Positions 1 through 10,229 of a stretch of 10,303 bases of DNA are shown here, piece by piece; the first letter of the stretch is position 1, and each line of letters begins with the position of its first letter. The notes beneath the pieces were generated by a model. It was not told where the DNA came from and searched no databases. It saw only the letters and a list, made by a program, of their open reading frames with translations. Location of the stretch: assembly GCA_947653315.1 (NCBI GenBank), contig CANTGP010000085.1:1-10303 (forward strand). The letters run 5' to 3'. Made by a program: the position numbers and the translations under genes. This DNA is from an uncultured Lachnospiraceae bacterium. GTDB lineage: Bacteria; Bacillota; Clostridia; Lachnospirales; Lachnospiraceae.

Positions 1-506
1 GCAATCGTAATCTTTCTCTTTTTATAGTGGAATTTATCGACGATTCTGTCCCGTGTAAATTTGGAAATCGTGATAATTCCCCTGCTGACCAGCAATGCGT
101 TTAAAATGGACAGTTTAAAATACCATTCCATATGCTTCTTCATCGTCTCCGGACAGTCCCAGCAAGTCAGGTCAGGAATCATGTTATAAATCCCCCTGTG
201 CCAAAACAGCAGCGGTCCCTGGAATGCCAAAAACAGGAAAACATCCGCCCGTACGCCATACAGGTGAAAGGGCAGAAACAACTGCGCAAACAGCAGCTTA
301 TTCTGCCCTTTGTATACCCTCATTTCCACATTCTTTTTCTCCCGGTACTTTAAAAATTCCGGGTGCACCGCCCTTTTAAACAACAGAATGTACGTATGTT
401 CTTCTTTCCGATCCATTTCCACCAGTTCCCTGGCGATATTCATGGCATACCGTTCAATGCCTGAAAAATTATCCGCCAGAGAGGTTAAATCTACCGCTAT
501 CCTCAT
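1..506 (-). CDS. Glycosyltransferase family 4-type protein, N-terminal part (cut by window edge)
   Basis: The first 168 codons of a protein that runs off the left edge. It opens with MRIAVDLTSLADNFSGIERY, the usual start of GT4 mannosyl/rhamnosyl-type transferases (a beta strand, then a glycine loop with the 'SGIxRY' pattern). Around residues 113-116 it has IPDL, matching the family's 'HDL' region, and near 148-153 TISKFT, matching the 'TxSxFS' motif that leads into the hinge. Only the acceptor-binding Rossmann domain is visible; the nucleotide-sugar-binding domain lies outside the window. The role inferred is adding one sugar to the lipid-linked repeat unit at the cytoplasmic membrane face; donor and acceptor cannot be read. 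The start ATG (504-506) overlaps the upstream stop codon as ATGA, and no strong ribosome binding site precedes it, which suggests translational coupling to the AAA-ATPase gene. Family assignment is fairly sure, specificity unknown. Confidence 0.85.
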   Translation of the reverse strand, partial: MRIAVDLTSLADNFSGIERYAMNIARELVEMDRKEEHTYILLFKRAVHPEFLKYREKKNVEMRVYKGQNKLLFAQLFLPFHLYGVRADVFLFLAFQGPLLFWHRGIYNMIPDLTCWDCPETMKKHMEWYFKLSILNALLVSRGIITISKFTRDRIVDKFHYKKRKITI

Positions 507-2191
507 TGCATCACCGCCCTGCCAATTAACACTGATTTTCCTTCAAATGCAAACCCGTATTTCCGTATCCGTTCTTCCGGTATTCCCGCCGCCAATAGTT
601 CTTTCCCGTATTCTTTTTCCTCAATCTGTTTCAGCGCTTCCCGCACCGTGTCCTCCATCGTCCGTTCCTTCTTTGTCCGCCGCACTTTGAATTCCATCAC
701 GATGGCATCCAAATTTTCCTTTTTAGGAACCAGCATAACATCATATCTGCCAAAGCCACTCTCTCTGTTGGATTTCACCTGATAACAATCCGCCAAATCC
801 ACCATCAGCCCTAACACAAATCCATGGTAAAATTTTTCCGGTTCCGCACTTTTTCCGGTATCAAAATAACTGAACATTTCCGAGGCAACCCTGTTCATAT
901 ATTCATTCATTGCATCCATGTCATCCGCCAGCAATGCTTCCAAAAATTCATTATAACTGCCCCTGCGCTCCGAAAACCAGTCGCGGACCATGTTTTCAAA
1001 CATAATACGGACTTCTTTGTTTGTCAGCGCCAGCCGGTAATATTCCCTGCCGGACAATTCCTCCATCCAACTATCCGCCACTTTCAGATAACCGCCTGCC
1101 AACAGCATACTCCACACCGCGCTTTCTTTCACCTCCAGTTGGTCGAATACCACCTGTTCGTCAAGCACGGTTTCCAATACTTCCCCCCGCATCAAACACT
1201 CGAAATCCATCTTGATATTCCGGCTTCCTTCCCGGATTAATTTTGCCACAAAACGGTTGCTGCTTGTATTTGCCCAATAAGCCGCCGGTTTTCTTTTCTC
1301 CAAAAAATTCAGCACCGACCAGGGATTATACAAGTCTGTCAGCCTGCCAAACGTAAAGCCATCGTACCATGCTTTTACCGTATCTTTTTTTTCCGATAAC
1401 CCGTATTCCTCCAATGCCCCAAACACCTCTGCCTCTGTAAATCCAAAAGCATCCTCGTATTTTTCCGTAGTCGCTGTTACCACTTCCATATGGTTCAAAT
1501 CGGAAAATATGGACTCTTTACTGATTCTGGTAATCCCGGTCAGCAGCGCCCTTTCCAAATATGGATTCGTCTTAAAAGCGGAATGGAACATACTCCTGGT
1601 GAACCGTACCATTTCATCCCAATATCCGTTAACCCATGCTTCCTGCATCGGCGCATCATACTCATCCAACAGAATAATCACCTTTTTCCCGTAATATCGG
1701 TATAAAAAAATCGACAACTGATGGAGTGCCATCGTTGCCTCCACATCCCCCATCCCATAACTTACCCGCCGGAAAAATTCCCTATCCTTATCCGTCAGGG
1801 CATCGCTTTCCAATAGAAATTCAAATTCCGCATATAGGTTCACCAAAAGCTGGCAGATTTTCCCCCTCGCCAATCCATAATCCCTCTCTTTCACATTGGC
1901 AAAAGAGAGACTAATCACCGGATAACTTCCCTGTAATTCCCTGAATTTTTCGTCTTCCCATATCTGAAGTCCCAAAAACAGCGCTCCACGGTCCGCGTAC
2001 CTGACGGAAAAAAATTTTTCCAGCATACTCATGGTAAGCGTTTTCCCGAACCGCCTCGGACGGGTAATCAGCGTAACCTCATCTTCCGACTCCCACCATT
2101 TTTTGATAAACGCCGTCTTATCGATATAAAAAGTATTTCTCACCCTGATTTTCTCAAAATCCTGATGTCCGATTCCCACCGTTCTTGCCAT
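503..2191 (-). CDS. AAA-ATPase-like protein with C-terminal PD-(D/E)XK nuclease-fold domain
   Basis: A 562-residue protein of the two-domain AAA-ATPase-like (PF09820 type) plus PD-(D/E)XK (PF08011 type) family, recognised by motif. From the chosen ATG, a P-loop variant TRPRRFGKT is at about 43-51. It has arginine where the canonical first glycine would be, which I recall as usual for this family. A Walker B strand VIILLDEYD is at about 171-179. The C-terminal domain shows SNRESGFGRYD with Asp484, then VMEFK with Glu500 and Lys502, which fits an intact D...ExK nuclease core. The opening MARTVGIGHQDFEKIR matches the family start, so ATG 2191 is preferred over an in-frame GTG at 2215; AGGAAAGG lies 12 nt before it. 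It overlaps the upstream polymerase gene by 38 nt and the downstream glycosyltransferase gene by 4 nt. The biological role of this common, often multicopy family is not established, and nothing in the sequence ties it to sugar chemistry. Confidence 0.88.
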   Translation of the reverse strand: MARTVGIGHQDFEKIRVRNTFYIDKTAFIKKWWESEDEVTLITRPRRFGKTLTMSMLEKFFSVRYADRGALFLGLQIWEDEKFRELQGSYPVISLSFANVKERDYGLARGKICQLLVNLYAEFEFLLESDALTDKDREFFRRVSYGMGDVEATMALHQLSIFLYRYYGKKVIILLDEYDAPMQEAWVNGYWDEMVRFTRSMFHSAFKTNPYLERALLTGITRISKESIFSDLNHMEVVTATTEKYEDAFGFTEAEVFGALEEYGLSEKKDTVKAWYDGFTFGRLTDLYNPWSVLNFLEKRKPAAYWANTSSNRFVAKLIREGSRNIKMDFECLMRGEVLETVLDEQVVFDQLEVKESAVWSMLLAGGYLKVADSWMEELSGREYYRLALTNKEVRIMFENMVRDWFSERRGSYNEFLEALLADDMDAMNEYMNRVASEMFSYFDTGKSAEPEKFYHGFVLGLMVDLADCYQVKSNRESGFGRYDVMLVPKKENLDAIVMEFKVRRTKKERTMEDTVREALKQIEEKEYGKELLAAGIPEERIRKYGFAFEGKSVLIGRAVMQ

Positions 2192-4058
2192 ATGTCCGCC
2201 AGCCCTTTCCTGCACTTACTATAACATCCGACCAGAACAAAGTCAATGCCGCCAAAACCGCATAAAACACCGCGTCCCGCACATGCTCCGCCTTTACAAT
2301 ATTCCCGGCTTTTTCCACCTCATACCTCCGGCTCTTGTCCATATGCTCAATCCGGTCCTCCCCGGAGCTTTTGCCAATGGTCTCCGAATCAATCCCTTCC
2401 TTTACCGAATATTTCCCGTCCCAAGTTTCCTGTCCGTGGGCAAGCAGCGCATTGAAAAGCCCCGCATATTCGTCTTCCGTAATATCATGGTACAATTCCA
2501 AAAGCCTTATGCGGAACGTATCATAAATTCCGCTGTTCTGCACGGAAACCGGGAGGGAATATTCCAAGGCTGCCGCCAGTTCTTCCGGTGAAATCCTTCC
2601 TTCCATACCGCACTCCCTTACCGCGGCTTCCAAAACGGAAGGATTTTCCAAAATCCTGCGGCAGTCCTCCATCTGTCCCTTAACGGCATCCTTCGTCCCC
2701 GCTGTCTCCGCCGCCTGCATCTGCACAGTCTGCGCCTGCACGTAATTCAGAGCCGTAACCGGCACACGGACATATTCTTCCACCGGCGCCGCAAAGAAAT
2801 ACACGGTAAAAACCACTGCCCCCGCAATACCGCAAACCAATCCCCGCAGACGGCGTTTTCCGTCCGTTTTTCCCATTCCTGCTCCCGCCCGTTTCCCGCT
2901 TCCTTTTTTTCCCCTAACGCGTATTTGAAACATATGCTCCGTCTCTCCGTCCGGGCGTACCGCTGTCCCGGCTTCCGTAATGCCAAACAATAACTCTCCG
3001 AAAAAAAGCAGGGAAAAATTCATAAACGCGTTGGATATAAACTGTTCCATAATACCATATAAAAGGAAGGAAAAAATCATGGCAAGTTCCGTCCGCCTGT
3101 CCGAACGGACATACCTGGCAATAAGTACGGCATAACCCGCGCAAAACAGCACAAATGCCACCACGCCGAACGTCATGAGAAAATACACATATCCGTTATC
3201 CATAATCACCCAAAAATTCGGCACATCCTTCATCCTCGTCCCCAAAAGCGTTATCGGCTGGTTCTGCAGGTAATAAGCGGAAAAAGTCAAACGGGCCTGC
3301 AGCATGGCATCCAGTTTTTGTACTGCCGGATACCGCAGCAGGAAAGGCACCCCGAAGGAGAAAAGCAGACAAAGGGGCAGGGGCAACTGACAAAAGATTT
3401 TCTCCGCCCTGCCAAGCCGCCCCCGTTTCACCGCATAGAAATCCAGCAGCAGGTAAAACGCCGTCACCGCCACTCCCGTATAACTCAAAGAATAGAAAAA
3501 AACCAAAAAATTCCCCGCCATTAACGCCGCAAGGCGTCTCCAGTCATAACGTTCCCCCCATGTATAACAAAGCAGTACGGTCAGCATAAAATAAGAAACA
3601 TGGAAAACATTTCCCGTACTGTATCCCATCCCCCAGCGGATTAGCTCCATCCCGCCCTTTTCATGCACCACCATGGGATTCCCGATGATGCCGCATTTCG
3701 CCGCCACTACGGTAAAGCCAAAGCATATACCGTAAACCACAGTTCCCATCCGGAACAATTTCTTTCCGTCCATATCTTTCATCCCGATAACGGTCAGCAC
3801 GGTAAGGACAATCCCCAGTCTTCCCGAATTCCGGTATGCAACAAAAGCTATGGCACACAACAGCGCCATAGCCGCAATTTCACGCATCCGGTATCTCGTC
3901 AGCACCAGTTTAACACCCACGCACAGACAGGCTGCCACACTTAAAATATAATAAAGCCGGTCGCCGCTGTCCAGCCCGATTCCTTTGGCGGATACCATGA
4001 GAAGGAAAAAAAAGGTATAGGAAATTTGTTTGATCTGATTTATCTTATTTTTATCCAT
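2154..4058 (-). CDS. Wzy-type polysaccharide polymerase with a C-terminal Wzz-like chain-length region
   Basis: A 634-residue membrane protein. Residues 12-362 hold roughly ten to twelve hydrophobic segments. Two stretches recall Firmicute Wzy-type polymerases: RWGMGYSTGN (141-150) followed by a membrane segment, and LLGTRMKDVP (271-280) followed by DNGYVYFLMTFGVVAFVLF (287-305). A basic linker (about 380-406, rich in K, R and G) leads to another membrane segment (407-424), an extracytoplasmic stretch of about 170 residues and a last membrane segment (595-614). That tail has Wzz/PCP topology. Its wording also resembles Wzz proteins: a repeated V/Y-rich start after the first segment, RRILENPSVLEAAVRECGM (467-485), ISPEELAAALEYSLP (489-503) and NSGIYDTFRI (508-517). 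The inferred role is polymerising undecaprenyl-linked repeat units outside the membrane with built-in length control. ATG 4058 was chosen because an upstream in-frame ATG (4187) lies upstream of the likely promoter's -10; the ribosome binding site is weak (GGG about 10 nt before). ATG 4106 is an alternative start. Polymerase call fairly sure; Wzz part moderate. Confidence 0.8.
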   Translation of the reverse strand: MDKNKINQIKQISYTFFFLLMVSAKGIGLDSGDRLYYILSVAACLCVGVKLVLTRYRMREIAAMALLCAIAFVAYRNSGRLGIVLTVLTVIGMKDMDGKKLFRMGTVVYGICFGFTVVAAKCGIIGNPMVVHEKGGMELIRWGMGYSTGNVFHVSYFMLTVLLCYTWGERYDWRRLAALMAGNFLVFFYSLSYTGVAVTAFYLLLDFYAVKRGRLGRAEKIFCQLPLPLCLLFSFGVPFLLRYPAVQKLDAMLQARLTFSAYYLQNQPITLLGTRMKDVPNFWVIMDNGYVYFLMTFGVVAFVLFCAGYAVLIARYVRSDRRTELAMIFSFLLYGIMEQFISNAFMNFSLLFFGELLFGITEAGTAVRPDGETEHMFQIRVRGKKGSGKRAGAGMGKTDGKRRLRGLVCGIAGAVVFTVYFFAAPVEEYVRVPVTALNYVQAQTVQMQAAETAGTKDAVKGQMEDCRRILENPSVLEAAVRECGMEGRISPEELAAALEYSLPVSVQNSGIYDTFRIRLLELYHDITEDEYAGLFNALLAHGQETWDGKYSVKEGIDSETIGKSSGEDRIEHMDKSRRYEVEKAGNIVKAEHVRDAVFYAVLAALTLFWSDVIVSAGKGWRTYGKNGGNRTSGF

Positions 4059-4148
4059 TTTACTATTGCCCGTCTTAACGATTCGCCTCTTATTTATACC
4101 ATGCATATCCCGTATCCACGCCGGTACTCCCACAGACTGCCACTGAAA

Positions 4149-4177
4149 ATTATACCGTAAAACCGCCTGTAAAACAA
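4149..4177 (-). promoter_or_regulatory. Predicted sigma-A promoter for the polymerase operon
   Basis: On the minus strand, TTGTTT (4172-4177) is followed by a 17-nt spacer and a perfect TATAAT (4149-4154). The -35 matches consensus only in TTG; the spacing and -10 are ideal. Transcription should start near 4142, giving a leader of about 84 nt before ATG 4058. Predicted from sequence only. Confidence 0.6.
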
Positions 4178-4191
4178 GTGCAAGCATATTT

Positions 4192-4324: not shown

Positions 4325-4331
4325 AAGGAGG
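4325..4331 (+). promoter_or_regulatory. Ribosome binding site that fixes a TTG start
   Basis: AAGGAGG ends 9 nt before TTG at 4341. No ATG or GTG lies at a suitable distance, and the protein beginning at this TTG aligns with the normal N-terminus of DltA-like enzymes, so the rare start codon is preferred. Confidence 0.85.
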
Positions 4332-4340
4332 AACAAAAGA

Positions 4341-5861
4341 TTGAACCGGAAAACCATTACGGATTACCTTGAGGAAACAGCCCGTAACTACCCGGATAAA
4401 ACCGCGTTTACGGACGAAAAACGTGAAATTACTTTTCGTGAAGTAAGGGAAGAAGCCCAAAAAACCGCTTCCGCCCTTCTGTCCATGAACCTTACCAAAA
4501 AACCGGTGGCTATTTTCATGGATAAATGCGTGGAATGCATCAACGCCTTTCTCGGCGTGGCTTACAGCGGAAATTTTTATACCGTCATCGATATCCACAT
4601 GCCGGCGGCAAGGATAGGAAAAATCCTGGAAACCCTGCAGCCGGAAGCCATCATTACGGACGACAGCCATTATTCCGAAGCCGAAAACATTGCCGGCGGC
4701 ATTCAAATACTTACCTACGGGCAAATGATGTCCCATCCCGTGGATGGGGAATTGTTAAAAAAGGCATCCGACCGGATGGTACAGACGGATATTTTATATG
4801 TCCTGTTTACTTCAGGCTCCACCGGCACTCCCAAAGGAGTCATCATTTCCCATGAGGCGGTCATCGCCTATTTGGAATGGGGCGCCGAAACTTTTCCTTT
4901 GGATGAAAATACCGTTTTTGCCAACCAGACGCCGTTCTATTTTGTCATGTCCGGTTTTGATATTTACCAAACCATACACAACGGCTCTACCATGCATATC
5001 ATCCCGAAACGTTTCTTTATGTTCCCGTTGAAACTGCTGGAATTTTTGCGTGACCGGAAAGTCAATACCCTTTACTGGGTTCCCTCGGTGCTGTGCTTCA
5101 TCGCTAATTTCGGCGCGCTTCCCAAAATTCACCTGAATGACCTGCATACGATTATGTTCAGCGGCGAAGTCATGCCTTCCAAACATCTGAATATGTGGCG
5201 GAACGAATACCCGGACGCATTGTTTGTCAACCACTACGGTCCCACGGAAATGACGGATATTTGTACCTATTATACCGTGGACCGGGAAATCGCGGATAAC
5301 GAAGCCCTTCCCATCGGCATTCCGTGCAGCCATATGGACATCCTCCTGCTGGATGAAAATGACAGACCCGTCAAACCCGGAGAGACCGGGGAGCTGTGCG
5401 GAAGGGGACCGTCCCTGGCATACGGCTATTACAACGACCCGGAGAAAACGGCCGCCGCCTTTGTGCAAAATCCGCTAAACACCAGCTACCCGGAAAAAAT
5501 ATACCGGACCGGAGACCTCGTCAGGCTCAATGACCGCGGGGAACTGGTCTACGTCACCAGAAAAGATTTCCAAATCAAACACATGGGGCACCGGATTGAA
5601 CTCGGGGAAATAGAAACGGCAGTATCCGCACTGGAAGGGGTGGAAATGAACTGCTGCCTATACGCCGGGGAAGAATCCGGCATCGTTTTGTTTTATACCG
5701 GCTCCATGGACGGTACCGAAATGCTCCGGCAGCTAAAACTTTCGCTGCCCAACTACATGCTGCCCAACCGGAGAATCCGCTTGGAGCAGATGCCCCTGAA
5801 CCTGAACGGAAAAATCGACCGGGCACAGCTACGCAGCCTTATTCCATCCCAGGCTCCCTGA
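4341..5861 (+). CDS. DltA-like AMP-forming adenylation enzyme with altered substrate pocket
   Basis: A 506-residue cytosolic adenylation enzyme, close to the normal DltA length of about 500. It should activate a carboxylic acid as its adenylate and load it on the phosphopantetheine arm of a carrier protein, probably the one at 8690-8917. Visible core motifs are the P-loop TSGSTGTPKG (157-166), NHYGPTE (297-303), YRTGD (388-392), the hinge and following motif RKDFQIKHMGHRIELGEIE (407-425), and NGK with catalytic Lys491. The substrate site is unusual. The segment PFYFVMSGFDIY aligns without gaps to the DltA segment with FSFDLSVMDLY, putting Val202 where the amino-group-binding aspartate belongs. 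IMFSGEV puts Ser274 where DltA has the cysteine linked to D-alanine choice. The substrate is therefore probably not D-alanine and perhaps not an amino acid. The gene has its own promoter and lies opposite to all its neighbours, with a 23-bp tail overlap with the SGNH gene. Enzyme class is sure, substrate open. Confidence 0.92.
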   Translation: MNRKTITDYLEETARNYPDKTAFTDEKREITFREVREEAQKTASALLSMNLTKKPVAIFMDKCVECINAFLGVAYSGNFYTVIDIHMPAARIGKILETLQPEAIITDDSHYSEAENIAGGIQILTYGQMMSHPVDGELLKKASDRMVQTDILYVLFTSGSTGTPKGVIISHEAVIAYLEWGAETFPLDENTVFANQTPFYFVMSGFDIYQTIHNGSTMHIIPKRFFMFPLKLLEFLRDRKVNTLYWVPSVLCFIANFGALPKIHLNDLHTIMFSGEVMPSKHLNMWRNEYPDALFVNHYGPTEMTDICTYYTVDREIADNEALPIGIPCSHMDILLLDENDRPVKPGETGELCGRGPSLAYGYYNDPEKTAAAFVQNPLNTSYPEKIYRTGDLVRLNDRGELVYVTRKDFQIKHMGHRIELGEIETAVSALEGVEMNCCLYAGEESGIVLFYTGSMDGTEMLRQLKLSLPNYMLPNRRIRLEQMPLNLNGKIDRAQLRSLIPSQAP

Positions 5862-7167
5862 CCTTTTCCGTCCGCCGCTCCCATTCCACGGTATCCCCCT
5901 GTCTCCGGCACCTTACCTGGATGGTTATTTTCCCGTCCAAATACGCTGCAGGAATCCGGCACTGCGTACTTTCCCCGTATTCCTGCAGTTTCACCCATTC
6001 CCCGCCTTCTTCACGGACCCAGTACTCATATTCGGGTACCACATCCGGGGCATGGATGCTTTCCGCCTCAATCAGCCTTCCGCCGCTTTCCCCGCCGGAG
6101 CGCGTGCCGAAATCACATGCCACAATCCCTTCGATATCCGCCTTCATTTCCTCCACGGAGCCGTAAAAATAACCGGATACGTCTTTTCCCGCAAGCCGGT
6201 CCCGCATCATTTCCCCCAGCAGACTGCTGCACACGAGGGCACCGTTTTCCCCCAAATGCCCTTCGTCGCTGAACATGGAATCCGGAAGGAGGCGCATCCG
6301 GTCCCTAAGCAGGTTCAAATCCCAAAAAGGAACCCCCTTTTCCGCCGCATAAGCGGAAAAAAATGCATATACCTGCTGATGGGTTTCCGACTGGTAAATC
6401 CCGGAAAAAGTATAGGGCATAGCCACCAAAAACAACTCGGCATCCTCCTCCCTGCACAAATCCACGATACAATCCAGATATTCCATTGCCCGGTCCGGTA
6501 TCCGCTCCACCCGCCAATCTCCTGCCGGATGAATCCTGGTACGCAGTTCCCCCCGTTCCTCCGTATACACGTAGCCCCGTTCCCGGTAATGCGTCCCTTC
6601 CCTGGTATCCACTCCTTCCCGGTAAGCAGCCTCCAACTTCGCTTTCAGATTTTCCGCCATGCTTCCCATGTTTTCCCTGTACCGGTAACTGGTTAAAAGC
6701 TGCAGCCAGTCCTGCCATTCCAGGCAATTCCCGATATACTCCGCCTTAATGTCCATGGATTTTATCCTGTCCAACACCACAAGCTCCCTTTTCGGAATAT
6801 AATCCTCCTCGGCGGCAAATATTCCGTAGTCAATTCCTACCACCACATATTTGAGGTCGTACTGCCGGAACAAATCCTTCAGATAATAATAGGTGCCCCA
6901 TATCATTTGGGAACCGGTTCCCGCATTCAGGACGCACGATACCCCTTCTCCCCCAAGTTCCCGCTCCAAAGCCGAAGGCACAAAATCCATTTCCGTACAG
7001 GAATCCCCGATGACCGCCATATCCGGGACTTTTCCGTTTTCCCTGTCTTTTTCCAGCTCCATATCCAAAAAATGCCCATACGTCACCGGCTCCAGCAAAA
7101 AAGAAAAAATGCTTTCATACAAAATGACCACCGCAAAAAACAACAACACTTTTTTAAAACTGCGCAT
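5839..7167 (-). CDS. Membrane-anchored SGNH hydrolase-like acyltransferase partner (DltD/AlgJ-like role)
   Basis: A 442-residue protein with a short basic N-terminus and one membrane anchor (about 5-25), placing the rest outside the cell. From the chosen start, IGDSCTEMDF (53-62) carries the likely nucleophile Ser56, and SDEGHLGENG (300-309) carries the DxxH-type pair Asp301 and His304. This is the SGNH fold used by DltD and AlgJ/AlgX-like proteins that finish transfer of an acyl group to a polymer. The last 70 or so residues form a separate beta-rich stretch, with YEYWVREEGGEWVKLQEYG followed by a strand ending ITIQVRCRR. It recalls small Y_Y_Y-type or Ig-like domains and may bind the polymer. 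ATG 7167 is preferred over ATG 7188 because AAAGGA lies 7 nt before it; it overlaps the MBOAT gene by 14 nt, implying coupled expression. Family is likely; the exact subfamily and acceptor are not known. Confidence 0.82.
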   Translation of the reverse strand: MRSFKKVLLFFAVVILYESIFSFLLEPVTYGHFLDMELEKDRENGKVPDMAVIGDSCTEMDFVPSALERELGGEGVSCVLNAGTGSQMIWGTYYYLKDLFRQYDLKYVVVGIDYGIFAAEEDYIPKRELVVLDRIKSMDIKAEYIGNCLEWQDWLQLLTSYRYRENMGSMAENLKAKLEAAYREGVDTREGTHYRERGYVYTEERGELRTRIHPAGDWRVERIPDRAMEYLDCIVDLCREEDAELFLVAMPYTFSGIYQSETHQQVYAFFSAYAAEKGVPFWDLNLLRDRMRLLPDSMFSDEGHLGENGALVCSSLLGEMMRDRLAGKDVSGYFYGSVEEMKADIEGIVACDFGTRSGGESGGRLIEAESIHAPDVVPEYEYWVREEGGEWVKLQEYGESTQCRIPAAYLDGKITIQVRCRRQGDTVEWERRTEKVREPGME

Positions 7168-8674
7168 ACATAAATCCTTTCGATGCATCGCTGCCGATAT
7201 CGCCCAAAAGAAGAATCATATAAACAAGCCCCACAAGGCAGACGTAACGGACCGCCGTCGGCATCCTGCATAACAAGTCCCTGCAATCCGTCTGCTTCTC
7301 CTTCCCAATATCCACTGCCGCCATAAGCAGGATTCCGAACAACAGCACAAAGACATCACAGGCTCCCAGTCCCGTAAGTTCCGGCAGCGATTCCATTGCC
7401 TCCGGCGCATCCCACACAAACAACAACCGCGTCAGGCGTAAAGCCTCCCGCGCGGAAGATGCGCCGGAAACCATCTCCATATAGCCAAAGAGTAAAAACG
7501 TGCGGACCATTTGGATAAGCCGCCACCAACGGCTTTCCTCACGGATATGTAGAAATTCCCGGCATTTCTTATACACCGGCGCCAAAAAAATCCCGGCCGC
7601 GATAAAGAACAGGTTCATCCATCCCCAAAGGAGGAAATTCCACGCCGTCCCATGCCACAGGCCGGTAGCCGTCCATACCAAAAACAGGGCAAGATAGCTG
7701 GGCAGCATCCTGGAAAAACCGGTCCCGAACTTTTCCCTGCATTTCCTTGCCAAATTCTGTGTCCTCTTTCCCACGGAAACCGTATAAAACACATAATCCC
7801 TGAACCACGCGCCAAGCGTAATATGCCACCTGCGCCAAAACTCATCGATGCTTTGGGAAAAAAACGGCTGCCGGAAGTTCTCCTCCAGCCGGATGCCCAA
7901 ACATTGGCAAATCCCTGCCGCAATATCCATATACCCCGAAAAATCGGCATATAGCTGGAGCGCCAGCGATACCATTAATACCAGTACATACACACAGCCG
8001 CAGGGCTTTTGCAACGCAAATACCGCTTCGGCAGCCATGCCAAACCGGTATGCAACCACCGTTTTCTTAAATATCCCCCACAGAATCCGGATACCGCCCC
8101 GCCGTAATCTTTCCCACGAAAAATCATGGGGTTCATACAGGGTTTCTTTCAGGTTGTTGTACCTGCTGAACGGTCCCTGCACCATATGCGGGAAAAAAGA
8201 AAGGAACAGCGCAAACCTCGCCGGGTTTTTCTCCGCCGGATATTTTCCCCGGTATACGTCGATACAGTATCCCATTGCCATAAACGTATAAAAAGAAATG
8301 CCTAGGGGGAATACCGGAAGCCCCGCATACTTTACTGCCACCCATATGCCGAAATTCAGCACCAAACAGGCTGCCATCATCCTTTTCTGTATCTTTGTGC
8401 ACTGCGCCTTGTTCTGCTGCTTTTCCTCCCTCGTATGGCATGTATTCTTCCTGATTTCCCGGTACGTTTCCCCCACCCGTTCCACCCGGACCGCACAGAT
8501 GTATGCGGAAACACAGGTGACGGCAAGAAAGGCGATGGAAAAACCGCCCCCGCTTACGTAAAACACCGCATTGGCAAAAAGCAGCACCAACCACTGCATC
8601 TTCCGGGGCGCCAAAAAATACCCCAAAAACAGCAGCAGGCAAAACACCAAAAATTCCACCGAAATAAAAGACAT
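7154..8674 (-). CDS. MBOAT-family membrane O-acyltransferase (AlgI/DltB type)
   Basis: A 506-residue polytopic membrane protein. PLGISFYTFMAMGYCIDVYRG (123-143), FFPHMVQGPFSRY (160-172), LYADFSGYMDIA (241-252), EFWRRWHITLGAWFRDYVF (278-296) and GLWHGTAWNF (338-347) are the standard MBOAT landmarks. His341 is the conserved catalytic histidine and His284 the second conserved one. Its length is nearer AlgI/PatA-type enzymes than DltB (about 400). The C-terminus ends FMYAQF with Tyr503. I recall this FxYxxF-type ending from DltX and from AlgI-like enzymes, where the tyrosine has been proposed to carry the acyl group. It should take the acyl group from the carrier protein inside and present it outside to the SGNH protein. 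AGAGGGG lies 9 nt before ATG 8674, 15 nt after the carrier gene ends. Confidence 0.93.
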   Translation of the reverse strand: MSFISVEFLVFCLLLFLGYFLAPRKMQWLVLLFANAVFYVSGGGFSIAFLAVTCVSAYICAVRVERVGETYREIRKNTCHTREEKQQNKAQCTKIQKRMMAACLVLNFGIWVAVKYAGLPVFPLGISFYTFMAMGYCIDVYRGKYPAEKNPARFALFLSFFPHMVQGPFSRYNNLKETLYEPHDFSWERLRRGGIRILWGIFKKTVVAYRFGMAAEAVFALQKPCGCVYVLVLMVSLALQLYADFSGYMDIAAGICQCLGIRLEENFRQPFFSQSIDEFWRRWHITLGAWFRDYVFYTVSVGKRTQNLARKCREKFGTGFSRMLPSYLALFLVWTATGLWHGTAWNFLLWGWMNLFFIAAGIFLAPVYKKCREFLHIREESRWWRLIQMVRTFLLFGYMEMVSGASSAREALRLTRLLFVWDAPEAMESLPELTGLGACDVFVLLFGILLMAAVDIGKEKQTDCRDLLCRMPTAVRYVCLVGLVYMILLLGDIGSDASKGFMYAQF

Positions 8675-8689
8675 GCGTTTCTTCCCCTC

Positions 8690-8917
8690 TTACTCGTCCA
8701 AAAGCCTGCACACCAGCCCGTAGATTGCCTCCGCGGAATTAAAGTTTGCGGGAAGCAGGTCTTCCGCATTTATTTCGATTCCAAACGAATTGTTCAGTTC
8801 CCCCACAATGGAGATGATGTCAAAAGAATTCAGAATCTCCCCTTCCACCAAATTTTTTTCCGTCCGGAAATCCACATCCGGATGCAGTTCCCCTAATATT
8901 TTCAATACTTCCTCCAT
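8690..8917 (-). CDS. Small acyl carrier protein (DltC-like role)
   Basis: A 75-residue carrier protein, the usual length for DltC and related discrete carriers. EGEILNSFDIISIVGELNNS holds the expected phosphopantetheine attachment serine, Ser31, at the start of helix II. FGIEINAEDLLPANFNSAEAI follows the normal helix II-III pattern. The residue before the serine is asparagine (codon AAT), whereas this position is nearly always aspartate in carrier proteins and helps recognition by the phosphopantetheinyl transferase. The protein should shuttle the activated acid from the adenylation enzyme at 4341-5861 to the MBOAT next door. The start ATG has AGGAG 12 nt upstream, a slightly long spacing, and follows the dehydrogenase stop by 22 nt. 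Confidence 0.9.
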   Translation of the reverse strand: MEEVLKILGELHPDVDFRTEKNLVEGEILNSFDIISIVGELNNSFGIEINAEDLLPANFNSAEAIYGLVCRLLDE

Positions 8918-8939: not shown

Positions 8940-10229
8940 TTATCTTCCGATGCTGTAATATTCTACCCCGTTTTCCTTCATCTCCGCGATATCATAGACA
9001 TTCCTTCCGTCATATACCAGCGGCGTCTGCATCAGCTCCTTATAGCGCTTTGCGGGAACCTCCCTGATTTCTTTCCATTCCGTGAAAATAAAGCAGATAT
9101 TTGCCCCCTCCAAGGCTTTCTCCGGGTTGTCCACATAAGTAATCTGCGGATACCTTTTCCGGAAGTTGTCCTCCGCTACCGGATCGTAAGCATACAAATC
9201 GGCGCCTTCTTCCAGCAGCAATTCCACATTGTCGATGGATGGCGCTTCCCTCAAATCGTCGGTTCCCGGTTTAAATGCCAGTCCCAACACAGCCACCTTT
9301 AACCCCTGGAACGTAATCATCCGGTCGCTGGCTTTCCGGAACAGCCTTGTCTTCTGCCTTTGGTTCACCGACACGGCGGCTTCCACCGTCTCCAAATGAT
9401 ATCCCGCTTTTTCCGCCAGGAATTTCAGCGCTTTCGTATCCTTGGGAAAACAGCTCCCGCCGTAACCGATACCCGCCTTCAGGAAATTGGCGCCGATTCT
9501 GGCATCATAGCTCATGCCCTTTGCCACATCCTCGATATTTGCCCCCACCAGTTCACAAAGATTGGCGATATCGTTCATGTAGGATATTTTAAGCGCAAGG
9601 AAATCATTGCTGGCATACTTGGTCATTTCCGCGCTCCTGCGGCTCACCGATACCACGGGAAGGCCGAAGGGCTCGTAAATTTCCATTAACAGTTTTTCCG
9701 CTTCCTTACTCTCCGTCCCGATAATAATCCGCGCCGCATGGAGCGTATCGCGCACGGCGGAACCCTGTGCCAAAAATTCCGGGTTGGAAGCCACTTCTAT
9801 CTTCACGTCATGAATGAGGAAATCCTTGATAAACTGCTCCACCTTATCGTTGGTTCCCACCGGAACCGTGGATTTCACCACCACAAGACAATCCCTCTCC
9901 ACCGATTCCGCTATCTGCCTGGAAACCGTTGCAATATAGCCCAAATTCGCGGACCCGTCCGGCTGCTCCGGCGTACCCACGCCGATGAAAATGGCATCCG
10001 CATCCCGGTACGCCGACCGGTAATCCGTGGTATAATGCAGCCTCCCCGCCGCATTGTTTTTCTGCATCAGTTCTTCCAGCCCTTCCTCGTAAATCGGGGA
10101 AATACCTGCTTCCATCTGTTTCACCTTATGTTCGTCCACATCCACGCATGTGACGTCATGCCCCTTTTCCGCAAAACATACACCGGCGACCAAACCGACG
10201 TAACCGGTTCCCGCAACCACTAATTTCAT
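8940..10229 (-). CDS. ugd: UDP-glucose 6-dehydrogenase
   Basis: A complete 429-residue enzyme of the UDP-glucose/GDP-mannose dehydrogenase family. It oxidises UDP-glucose to UDP-glucuronate with two NAD+ in the cytosol, supplying uronic acid or its derivatives for the polymer. The NAD-binding fold starts MKLVVAGTGYVGLVAG (glycine loop 7-12). STVPVGT (120-126) and NPEFLAQGSAVRD (149-161) are the standard middle motifs. Lys204 and Asn208 lie in EMTKYASNDF. GYGGSCFPKDTKAL holds the catalytic Cys260, and FKPGTDDLREAPS (319-331) opens the C-terminal nucleotide-sugar domain. The GYGGSCFPKD wording favours UDP-glucose over GDP-mannose or UDP-HexNAc dehydrogenases. It heads the visible part of the operon that continues with the acyl carrier, MBOAT and SGNH genes. 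The start is supported by a strong ribosome binding site at 10240-10245. No defect is seen. Confidence 0.96.
   Translation of the reverse strand: MKLVVAGTGYVGLVAGVCFAEKGHDVTCVDVDEHKVKQMEAGISPIYEEGLEELMQKNNAAGRLHYTTDYRSAYRDADAIFIGVGTPEQPDGSANLGYIATVSRQIAESVERDCLVVVKSTVPVGTNDKVEQFIKDFLIHDVKIEVASNPEFLAQGSAVRDTLHAARIIIGTESKEAEKLLMEIYEPFGLPVVSVSRRSAEMTKYASNDFLALKISYMNDIANLCELVGANIEDVAKGMSYDARIGANFLKAGIGYGGSCFPKDTKALKFLAEKAGYHLETVEAAVSVNQRQKTRLFRKASDRMITFQGLKVAVLGLAFKPGTDDLREAPSIDNVELLLEEGADLYAYDPVAEDNFRKRYPQITYVDNPEKALEGANICFIFTEWKEIREVPAKRYKELMQTPLVYDGRNVYDIAEMKENGVEYYSIGR

Follow-up and report, generated by a model that had tools for sequence, protein, structure and literature searches.

We analyzed a 10,303-nucleotide contig of an uncultured Lachnospiraceae bacterium (CANTGP010000085.1, assembly GCA_947653315.1; this whole stretch is called the window below) and found that the stand-alone adenylation (A) enzyme encoded at 4341 to 5861 lacks two hallmarks of the D-alanine-activating enzyme DltA, the aspartate that holds the substrate alpha-amine and the cysteine tied to D-alanine selection, with Val202 and Ser274 in their places. 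Most of the nearest relatives of the enzyme lack this aspartate too, and its absence marks a clade; it is no peculiarity of this gene. Its sequence supports an intact enzyme that looks active and has an altered pocket, and its substrate is probably an acid without an alpha-amino group. The enzyme would form the front end of a Dlt-like acylation cassette, for which we tentatively propose as the substrate an omega-amino acid with a short chain (for example, beta-alanine or 4-aminobutyrate).

The A enzyme passed the amino acid adenylation domain model TIGR01733 (344.5 bits; cut-off, 317.4) and failed both the DltA model TIGR01734 (303.6 bits; cut-off, 559.85) and another DltA model (311.5 bits; cut-off, 476). 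It retains the TSGSTG, YGPTE, YRTGD, GEIE, and NGK motifs, as well as the catalytic Lys491, present in 121/121 aligned sequences. As a DltA reference we used L256, a protein from a Bacillus genome that scores 730 bits in TIGR01734 and that we aligned to PDB entries 3e7w and 3fcc, taking the roles of the DltA pocket residues from PMC11253843 (this and the other papers are cited from excerpts). The two pockets align without gaps (NQAPFSFDLSVMDLYP against NQTPFYFVMSGFDIYQ; MFCGE against MFSGE), and DltA residues Asp197, Leu198, Cys269, and Val301 correspond to Val202, Met203, Ser274, and Asp306 of the A enzyme, which keeps the proline of GPTE (Pro301). A preliminary description made from the DNA alone had proposed this gap-free alignment, with Val202 at the site of the amine-binding aspartate (GrsA Asp235) and Ser274 at that of the DltA cysteine, and had called the enzyme active looking but retuned, with all catalytic motifs intact; the alignment and the motifs bear these points out.

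We aligned the enzyme with the best 120 of 7,998 scored homologues. Position 202 was V in 61 of these 121 sequences, D in 30, I in 13, S in 13, and A in 4, leaving 91 without the aspartate. All 30 Asp202 sequences had Cys (24) or Ala (6) at position 274, and 77 of the 78 V/I/A202 sequences had Gly (64) or Ser (13) there, the last having Asp; the comparison at these two positions that the preliminary description had suggested thus indicates that the Val202/Ser274 combination is not due to chance. In a midpoint-rooted FastTree phylogeny of 225 sequences (position 202: D 118, V 62, S 25, I 16, A 4), the V/I/A202 proteins formed a single clade of 80 (support, 0.86) in which position 202 was V in 62, I in 14, and A in 4 and was never acidic. 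Two further I202 proteins, of class ISA, fell outside this clade, as did the S202 proteins, and parsimony gave six changes between Asp and non-Asp at position 202, with Asp at the root.

To define groups from the tree alone, we compared the clade of 80 with 51 neighbors outside the 88-member clade that contains it. Among 500 columns ranked by divergence, position 202 was first and position 274 was fifth, and six of the nine core-domain code positions fell in the top 30 (Mann-Whitney P = 0.0005; P = 0.002 without position 202 and 0.004 without positions 202, 274, and 306). Most of the pocket was therefore remodeled together; code positions 206, 249, and 306 differed little between the groups (ranks 120, 378, and 253). 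Within the clade, most members have Gly at 274, and position 306 is D in 69, E in 10, and G in 1. The GPTE proline is missing, with Gln or Ser instead, in 17/80 clade members versus 2/145 others. These results show that the loss of Asp202 is clade wide and functionally coherent, in a variant of the Dlt/MBOAT-SGNH kind.

The other members of the cassette lie on the strand opposite to that of the A-domain gene (Table 1): an acyl carrier protein (ACP), an MBOAT acyltransferase, and an SGNH-type protein. A UDP-glucose dehydrogenase-type gene lies next to them on that strand. The 3' ends of the SGNH and A-domain genes overlap by 23 bases. The ACP (24.5 bits versus 68 for DltC) and the MBOAT both miss the curated Dlt models. 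The features of an MBOAT-SGNH pair are present, namely, LWHGT with the MBOAT histidine, FMYAQF with the shuttle tyrosine, VIGDS, and SDEGH, and the Pfam score of the SGNH protein is below the cut-off. Of 92 loci, including the window, 72 had an ACP close to the A domain, 69 had an MBOAT there, and 63 had an SGNH-cluster protein. FxYxxF, a hexapeptide described as an acyl shuttle (PMC12148441), occurs within the last 40 residues of 61/70 family MBOATs, the remaining nine having related endings with Tyr. Judged by sequence, the A enzyme, ACP, shuttle-motif MBOAT, and SGNH-like protein make up a predicted Dlt-like acylation cassette, and the family appears to combine a Dlt-like front end with a Pat-like fused shuttle.

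A genome of the same genus (G009) carries an equivalent locus, L141 (positions 1 to 19901), whose products are 60 to 64% identical to those of the window for the Wzy-like protein (64%), UDP-glucose dehydrogenase (62%), SGNH protein (60%), MBOAT (62%, L141:7660-9210; the other L141 MBOAT, 31%), and ACP (63%). The L141 A domain, which adjoins the ACP, is only 44% identical to the window enzyme and belongs to a different pocket class, DSC. L141 also encodes a pyridoxal phosphate (PLP) decarboxylase (PF02784/PF00278; 4866 to 6053), and none is encoded in the window. The DNA of the two loci is collinear, with 68% identity over SGNH-MBOAT-ACP (window 5971 to 8882) and 78% identity through much of the gene for the Wzy-like protein. 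The dehydrogenase gene occupies a different place in the opposite orientation, and the A domains match over only 56 bases of DNA. Across 290 relatives searched at E values up to 1e-30, SGNH matches apart from that in L141 were only 28 to 29% identical and came from two genomes. The two loci thus carry differing activating enzymes on a conserved back end, an apparent front-end swap whose direction we infer only. Back end and pocket class usually cosegregate, the nearest neighbor being of the same class for 53/69 MBOATs, 43/51 SGNH proteins, and 49/73 ACPs; swaps are therefore exceptions. A second, weaker case is L212 (S202) versus L063 (DSC), with 55% identical MBOATs and 53% identical SGNH proteins. 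Such a swap probably alters either the way in which a chemical group is attached or the identity of that group. L141 has a second MBOAT gene (11003 to 12535) beside that of a small protein (12536 to 12778) that looks ACP-like by eye.

We compared pocket class, labeled by the residues at window positions 202/274/306, with genes within four genes on either strand in 110 distinct loci, a count that leaves out short loci (L178 and L181 to L186, none V-type), identical A domains, and loci L083 to L099 and L101 to L130 (nonribosomal peptide synthetase [NRPS]-like or distant, 28 to 34% identical). An Asp/Glu racemase (PF01177) accompanied 18/39 DGG loci and 0/71 others. A PLP decarboxylase of the ornithine/diaminopimelate type accompanied 12/18 DSC, 2/2 ISA, and 1/39 DGG loci (in the wider neighborhood, 13/18 DSC, which takes in the L141 gene, and 1/11 SAD). 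GNAT genes were found in 14/14 DxV and 1/11 SAD loci, and AAC(3)-like acetyltransferase genes in 4/14 DCD and 1/11 SAD loci. A Na+:solute symporter occurred in 3/5 V/I/S202-G/S274-D306 loci (L051, L206, and L208), each time between the A domain and the ACP, and in 1/39 DGG loci; the remaining two are the window, which has none, and L255, whose contig stops 375 bases past the A domain. With 92 loci (same strand, within three genes), the symporter count was 3/4 versus 0/88 (Fisher P = 3e-5), a value that flatters the association, as do all P values here for class and neighbor, since the loci are related and the classes were defined after the data were seen. The best superfamily model for the symporter was TIGR00813, below its cut-off, with PF00474 above cut-off for L206; acetate and monocarboxylate carriers are among its lower-scoring named matches, and proline and pantothenate carriers score higher.

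The DGG (racemase) and DSC (decarboxylase) classes carry Lys, or in a few cases Arg, at position 206 (GrsA 239), which by sequence fits acidic substrates. None of the 225 sequences combined Lys or Arg at 206 with an acidic residue at 306 (0/73 K/R206 sequences; all 142 acid-306 sequences are neutral at 206), and 38/118 Asp202 sequences have an acid at 306. This mutual exclusion would be expected if position 206 read a carboxylate and position 306 an amine, roles that we assign tentatively by analogy with the geometry of GrsA.

Several loci of other classes showed recurring arrangements. In DxV loci L133, L234 to L242, and L244 to L247, the GNAT gene adjoins the A domain and, in those loci with a visible ACP, precedes it, and the aminoacyl-ACP is perhaps N-acylated. 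In L053 to L058 and other DGG loci, the Asp/Glu racemase gene is directly upstream of the A domain; that of L058 passes the NCBIfam cut-off for cysteate racemase CuyB (204.5 versus 190), and we predict acidic D-aminoacyl decoration for these loci. L253 (7019 to 10893) and L200 have a DCD-like A domain and an ACP beside an AAC(3)-like acetyltransferase (PF02522), L253 also having a DUF4910 protein; no MBOAT was seen in this stretch of L253, and these two loci perhaps use a cytoplasmic route onto amino sugars. Elsewhere in the genome of the window (G000), contig C371 (L037 and L258) has a distant AMP-ligase homologue (1644 to 3095) directly beside a Na+:solute symporter homologue (124 to 1518), and contig C39 (L032, L033, and L036) has a 3066-residue open frame with three A-domain matches, probably an NRPS.

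We infer the activity of the A enzyme, its substrate, and its target polymer from these comparisons. The enzyme would adenylate a small acid and load the ACP, the MBOAT would take the acyl group from the ACP onto its own tyrosine within the C-terminal FMYAQF, and the SGNH protein would transfer it to a surface polysaccharide. Val202 would line the site of the would-be alpha-amine, and Asp306 would grip an amine further along the substrate. An acidic-amino-acid-type A domain plus a PLP decarboxylase, as in L141, would be replaced by a single enzyme, which could directly load a group of the same kind. The L141 pair follows the logic of VinN/VinO/VinL, in which a dicarboxylic amino acid is loaded on an ACP and decarboxylated there, and of BtrK, which decarboxylates iso-glutamyl-ACP (PMC11284099 and PMC7756342). 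The L141 decarboxylase route and Asp306 together make an omega-amino acid our first choice, favored over a hydroxy acid. The preliminary description had named a hydroxy acid, a keto acid, or another acid without an alpha-amino group; the last and general part stands as probable, the alpha-keto acid is disfavored by Pro301, and an omega-amino acid is no less likely than a hydroxy acid, given that L141 has a different A domain and a decarboxylase. It had also held that another acidic residue at the amine would speak against its view, and Asp306 is a version of such a residue, one that could hold the amine further along the substrate.

Several observations weigh against an omega-amino acid. VinN-type enzymes hold the beta-amine by the same aspartate that is absent here (PMC11253843), and free beta-alanine was ruled out as an intermediate of the bolagladin pathway (among PMC11284099 and PMC7756342). 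Position 306 is acidic outside the clade too (43 Asp and 1 Glu in the 51 neighbors), and Asp306 was therefore not acquired to replace Asp202; the direction of its side chain is taken from GrsA, and it may hold a hydroxyl instead. Few branches underlie the K206/D306 pattern, which may reflect one event. A symporter, rather than a decarboxylase or amino acid gene, accompanies three of the five V/I/S202 loci described above, no substrate gene was found in the window, which is the whole 10.3-kb contig, and the swap involves a single genome pair.

The closest competitor, which we consider somewhat less likely than an omega-amino acid, is that the same cassette loads a small hydroxy acid (one like lactate, 3-hydroxybutyrate, or glycerate) or a plain acid of another kind. 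Asp306 and the Gln/His at position 298 would hold the hydroxyl, and relatives would import the acid by the Na+ symporter, whose position between A domain and ACP and whose weaker acetate and monocarboxylate matches favor this idea, though the proline and pantothenate carriers score higher. Position 202 is hydrophobic or small, as in alpha-hydroxy-acid A domains (Ala or Gly; PMC11253843). However, the nearly invariant acid at 306 exceeds the need of a hydroxyl, the symporters in the genome of the window (81% complete) are only 25 to 27% identical and none lies in the window, and the common back end is paired in L141 with an A domain and decarboxylase. The preliminary description had pointed to hydrophobic residues at position 202 in keto- and hydroxy-acid domains; the alpha-hydroxy-acid domains and StsA (Ile) agree with this, but McyG has Val and yet activates L-Phe (PMC11253843).

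McyG, together with DltA residues 295 and 301, which also hold the amine (PMC11253843), is what would suggest that the A enzyme still activates an alpha-amino acid, gripped by backbone carbonyls and hydrophobic contacts. The loss of Asp202 argues against this, position 202 being never acidic in the clade of 80 and position 274 and other pocket columns having changed alongside, and we regard it as improbable. An alpha-keto acid is less probable still. In its favor, StsA, which activates a keto acid, carries Ile at the aspartate site (PMC11253843) and, like the 17 clade members noted above, lacks the GPTE proline. However, the window protein retains Pro301, the corresponding StsA residue is Met and the M415P mutant of StsA lost activity (PMC11253843), and TIGR and Pfam models revealed no ketoreductase in the window. 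Decay to an inactive enzyme that tolerates loss of a key residue is very hard to credit, with nothing in its favor besides the lost aspartate and the convergent placement.

Table 1. Features of the window and of the A-domain gene
Feature	Positions	Strand	Basis
Glycosyltransferase-like protein, N-terminal part, cut by contig end	3..506	-	PF13439, 23.4 bits, below cut-off of 28.5
Protein without Pfam match; a Wzy-like polymerase is a guess	2154..4187	-	64% identity to counterpart in same-genus locus L141
AGGAGG, likely ribosome-binding site of A-domain gene	4326..4331	+	Sequence
Stand-alone A enzyme	4341..5861	+	506 aa, start codon TTG; pocket code of ten residues, VMFSMSHDIK; TIGR01733 match
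Codon of Val202 (DltA Asp197, GrsA Asp235)	4944..4946	+	Alignment
Codon of Phe206 (GrsA Trp239; Lys/Arg in racemase, decarboxylase, and GNAT classes)	4956..4958	+	Pocket-code comparison
Codon of Ser274 (DltA Cys269, GrsA Ala301)	5160..5162	+	Alignment
Codon of Asp306 (DltA Val301, GrsA Ile330); acidic in 79/80 clade members	5256..5258	+	Alignment
Codon of catalytic Lys491	5811..5813	+	Invariant in 121/121 aligned sequences
SGNH-type acyltransferase-like protein, 449 aa, VIGDS and SDEGH; putative DltD/PatB role	5839..7188	-	Weak Pfam match, E 0.0026, below cut-off
MBOAT acyltransferase, 506 aa	7154..8674	-	PF03062, 52.5 bits, cut-off 27; TIGR04091 (DltB), 155.2 bits, below cut-off of 375
C-terminal FMYAQF, FxYxxF acyl-shuttle motif of MBOAT	7157..7174	-	Sequence; motif per excerpt of PMC12148441
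ACP, 75 aa; phosphopantetheine serine probably in NSFD	8690..8917	-	PF00550, 21.0 bits, gathering 20.8
UDP-glucose dehydrogenase-type enzyme; putative polymer-precursor role	8940..10229	-	TIGR03026, 447.5 bits, cut-off 189.8

An AAA-ATPase-like protein with a PD-(D/E)XK part (PF09820 and PF08011) is encoded at 503 to 2215 (minus strand), at the edge of the polysaccharide locus; its relatives are 60% identical in L207 and 26 to 33% identical in L132, L141, and L147.

The textbook example of aminoacyl groups added to bacterial envelopes is D-alanylation, and the family suggests additional acyl groups on gut-type bacterial polysaccharides, set by a pocket code that can be read from sequence together with a neighbor gene that matches it. 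The charge and bulk of such groups influence the encounters of polysaccharides with host peptides, phages, and lectins. As a possible general scheme, which we put forward with reserve, Lachnospiraceae-type and related bacteria would use a modular acyl code, with one back end (ACP, shuttle-fused MBOAT, and SGNH protein), exchangeable A enzymes, and a pocket class matched by an accessory gene. The pairings under such a code would be racemase with acidic D-amino acids, decarboxylase with omega-amino acids, GNAT with N-acylated amino acids, and Na+ symporter with imported acids, and the window would be a natural swap of a non-alpha-amino-acid enzyme onto a back end that a decarboxylating route serves in the sister locus.

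Among described NRPS A domains, the keto-acid domain of StsA, the engineered hydroxy-acid domains of TycA and EnSyn, and that of McyG have a hydrophobic or small residue at GrsA 235 (PMC11253843), as the window enzyme does with Val202; the window enzyme differs from them in its acid at GrsA 330 and in not being part of an assembly line, and from StsA also in its GPTE proline. Known alpha-hydroxy-acid domains have the small aliphatic residues Ala and Gly at 235 (PMC11253843), compared with Val here. The A enzyme, ACP, and PLP decarboxylase logic of VinN/VinO/VinL and BolO/BolN/BolC matches that of the L141 sister class. VinN has Phe231 and Ser299 (PMC11253843), and the window enzyme likewise has a bulky Met203 (GrsA 236) and Ser274 (GrsA 301), but VinN keeps Asp at 235 for the beta-amine, whereas the window has Val202 and no decarboxylase. 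The beta13-beta14 loop of VinN is one residue shorter, and the window enzyme, compared with VinN by description, is gap free there against DltA and LgrA, showing no such shortening. The exosortase-A-associated ligase model TIGR03098 gave 201 bits for the window enzyme versus 592, and the sister-class decarboxylases match the associated decarboxylase model TIGR03099 below its cut-off. Compared with the Dlt system for D-alanylation of teichoic acids, where the shuttle motif is on the DltX microprotein, the window has the motif fused to the MBOAT and an A enzyme that falls short of DltA in both score and pocket residues, and its cassette lies instead beside UDP-glucose dehydrogenase-type and glycosyltransferase-like genes. 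It shares with PatA/PatB-type systems the C-terminal FxYxxF of the MBOAT and the SGNH partner; the excerpt of PMC12148441 describes MBOAT/SGNH pathways other than Dlt as having no DltC-like carrier protein, whereas the window has both an ACP and an A enzyme.
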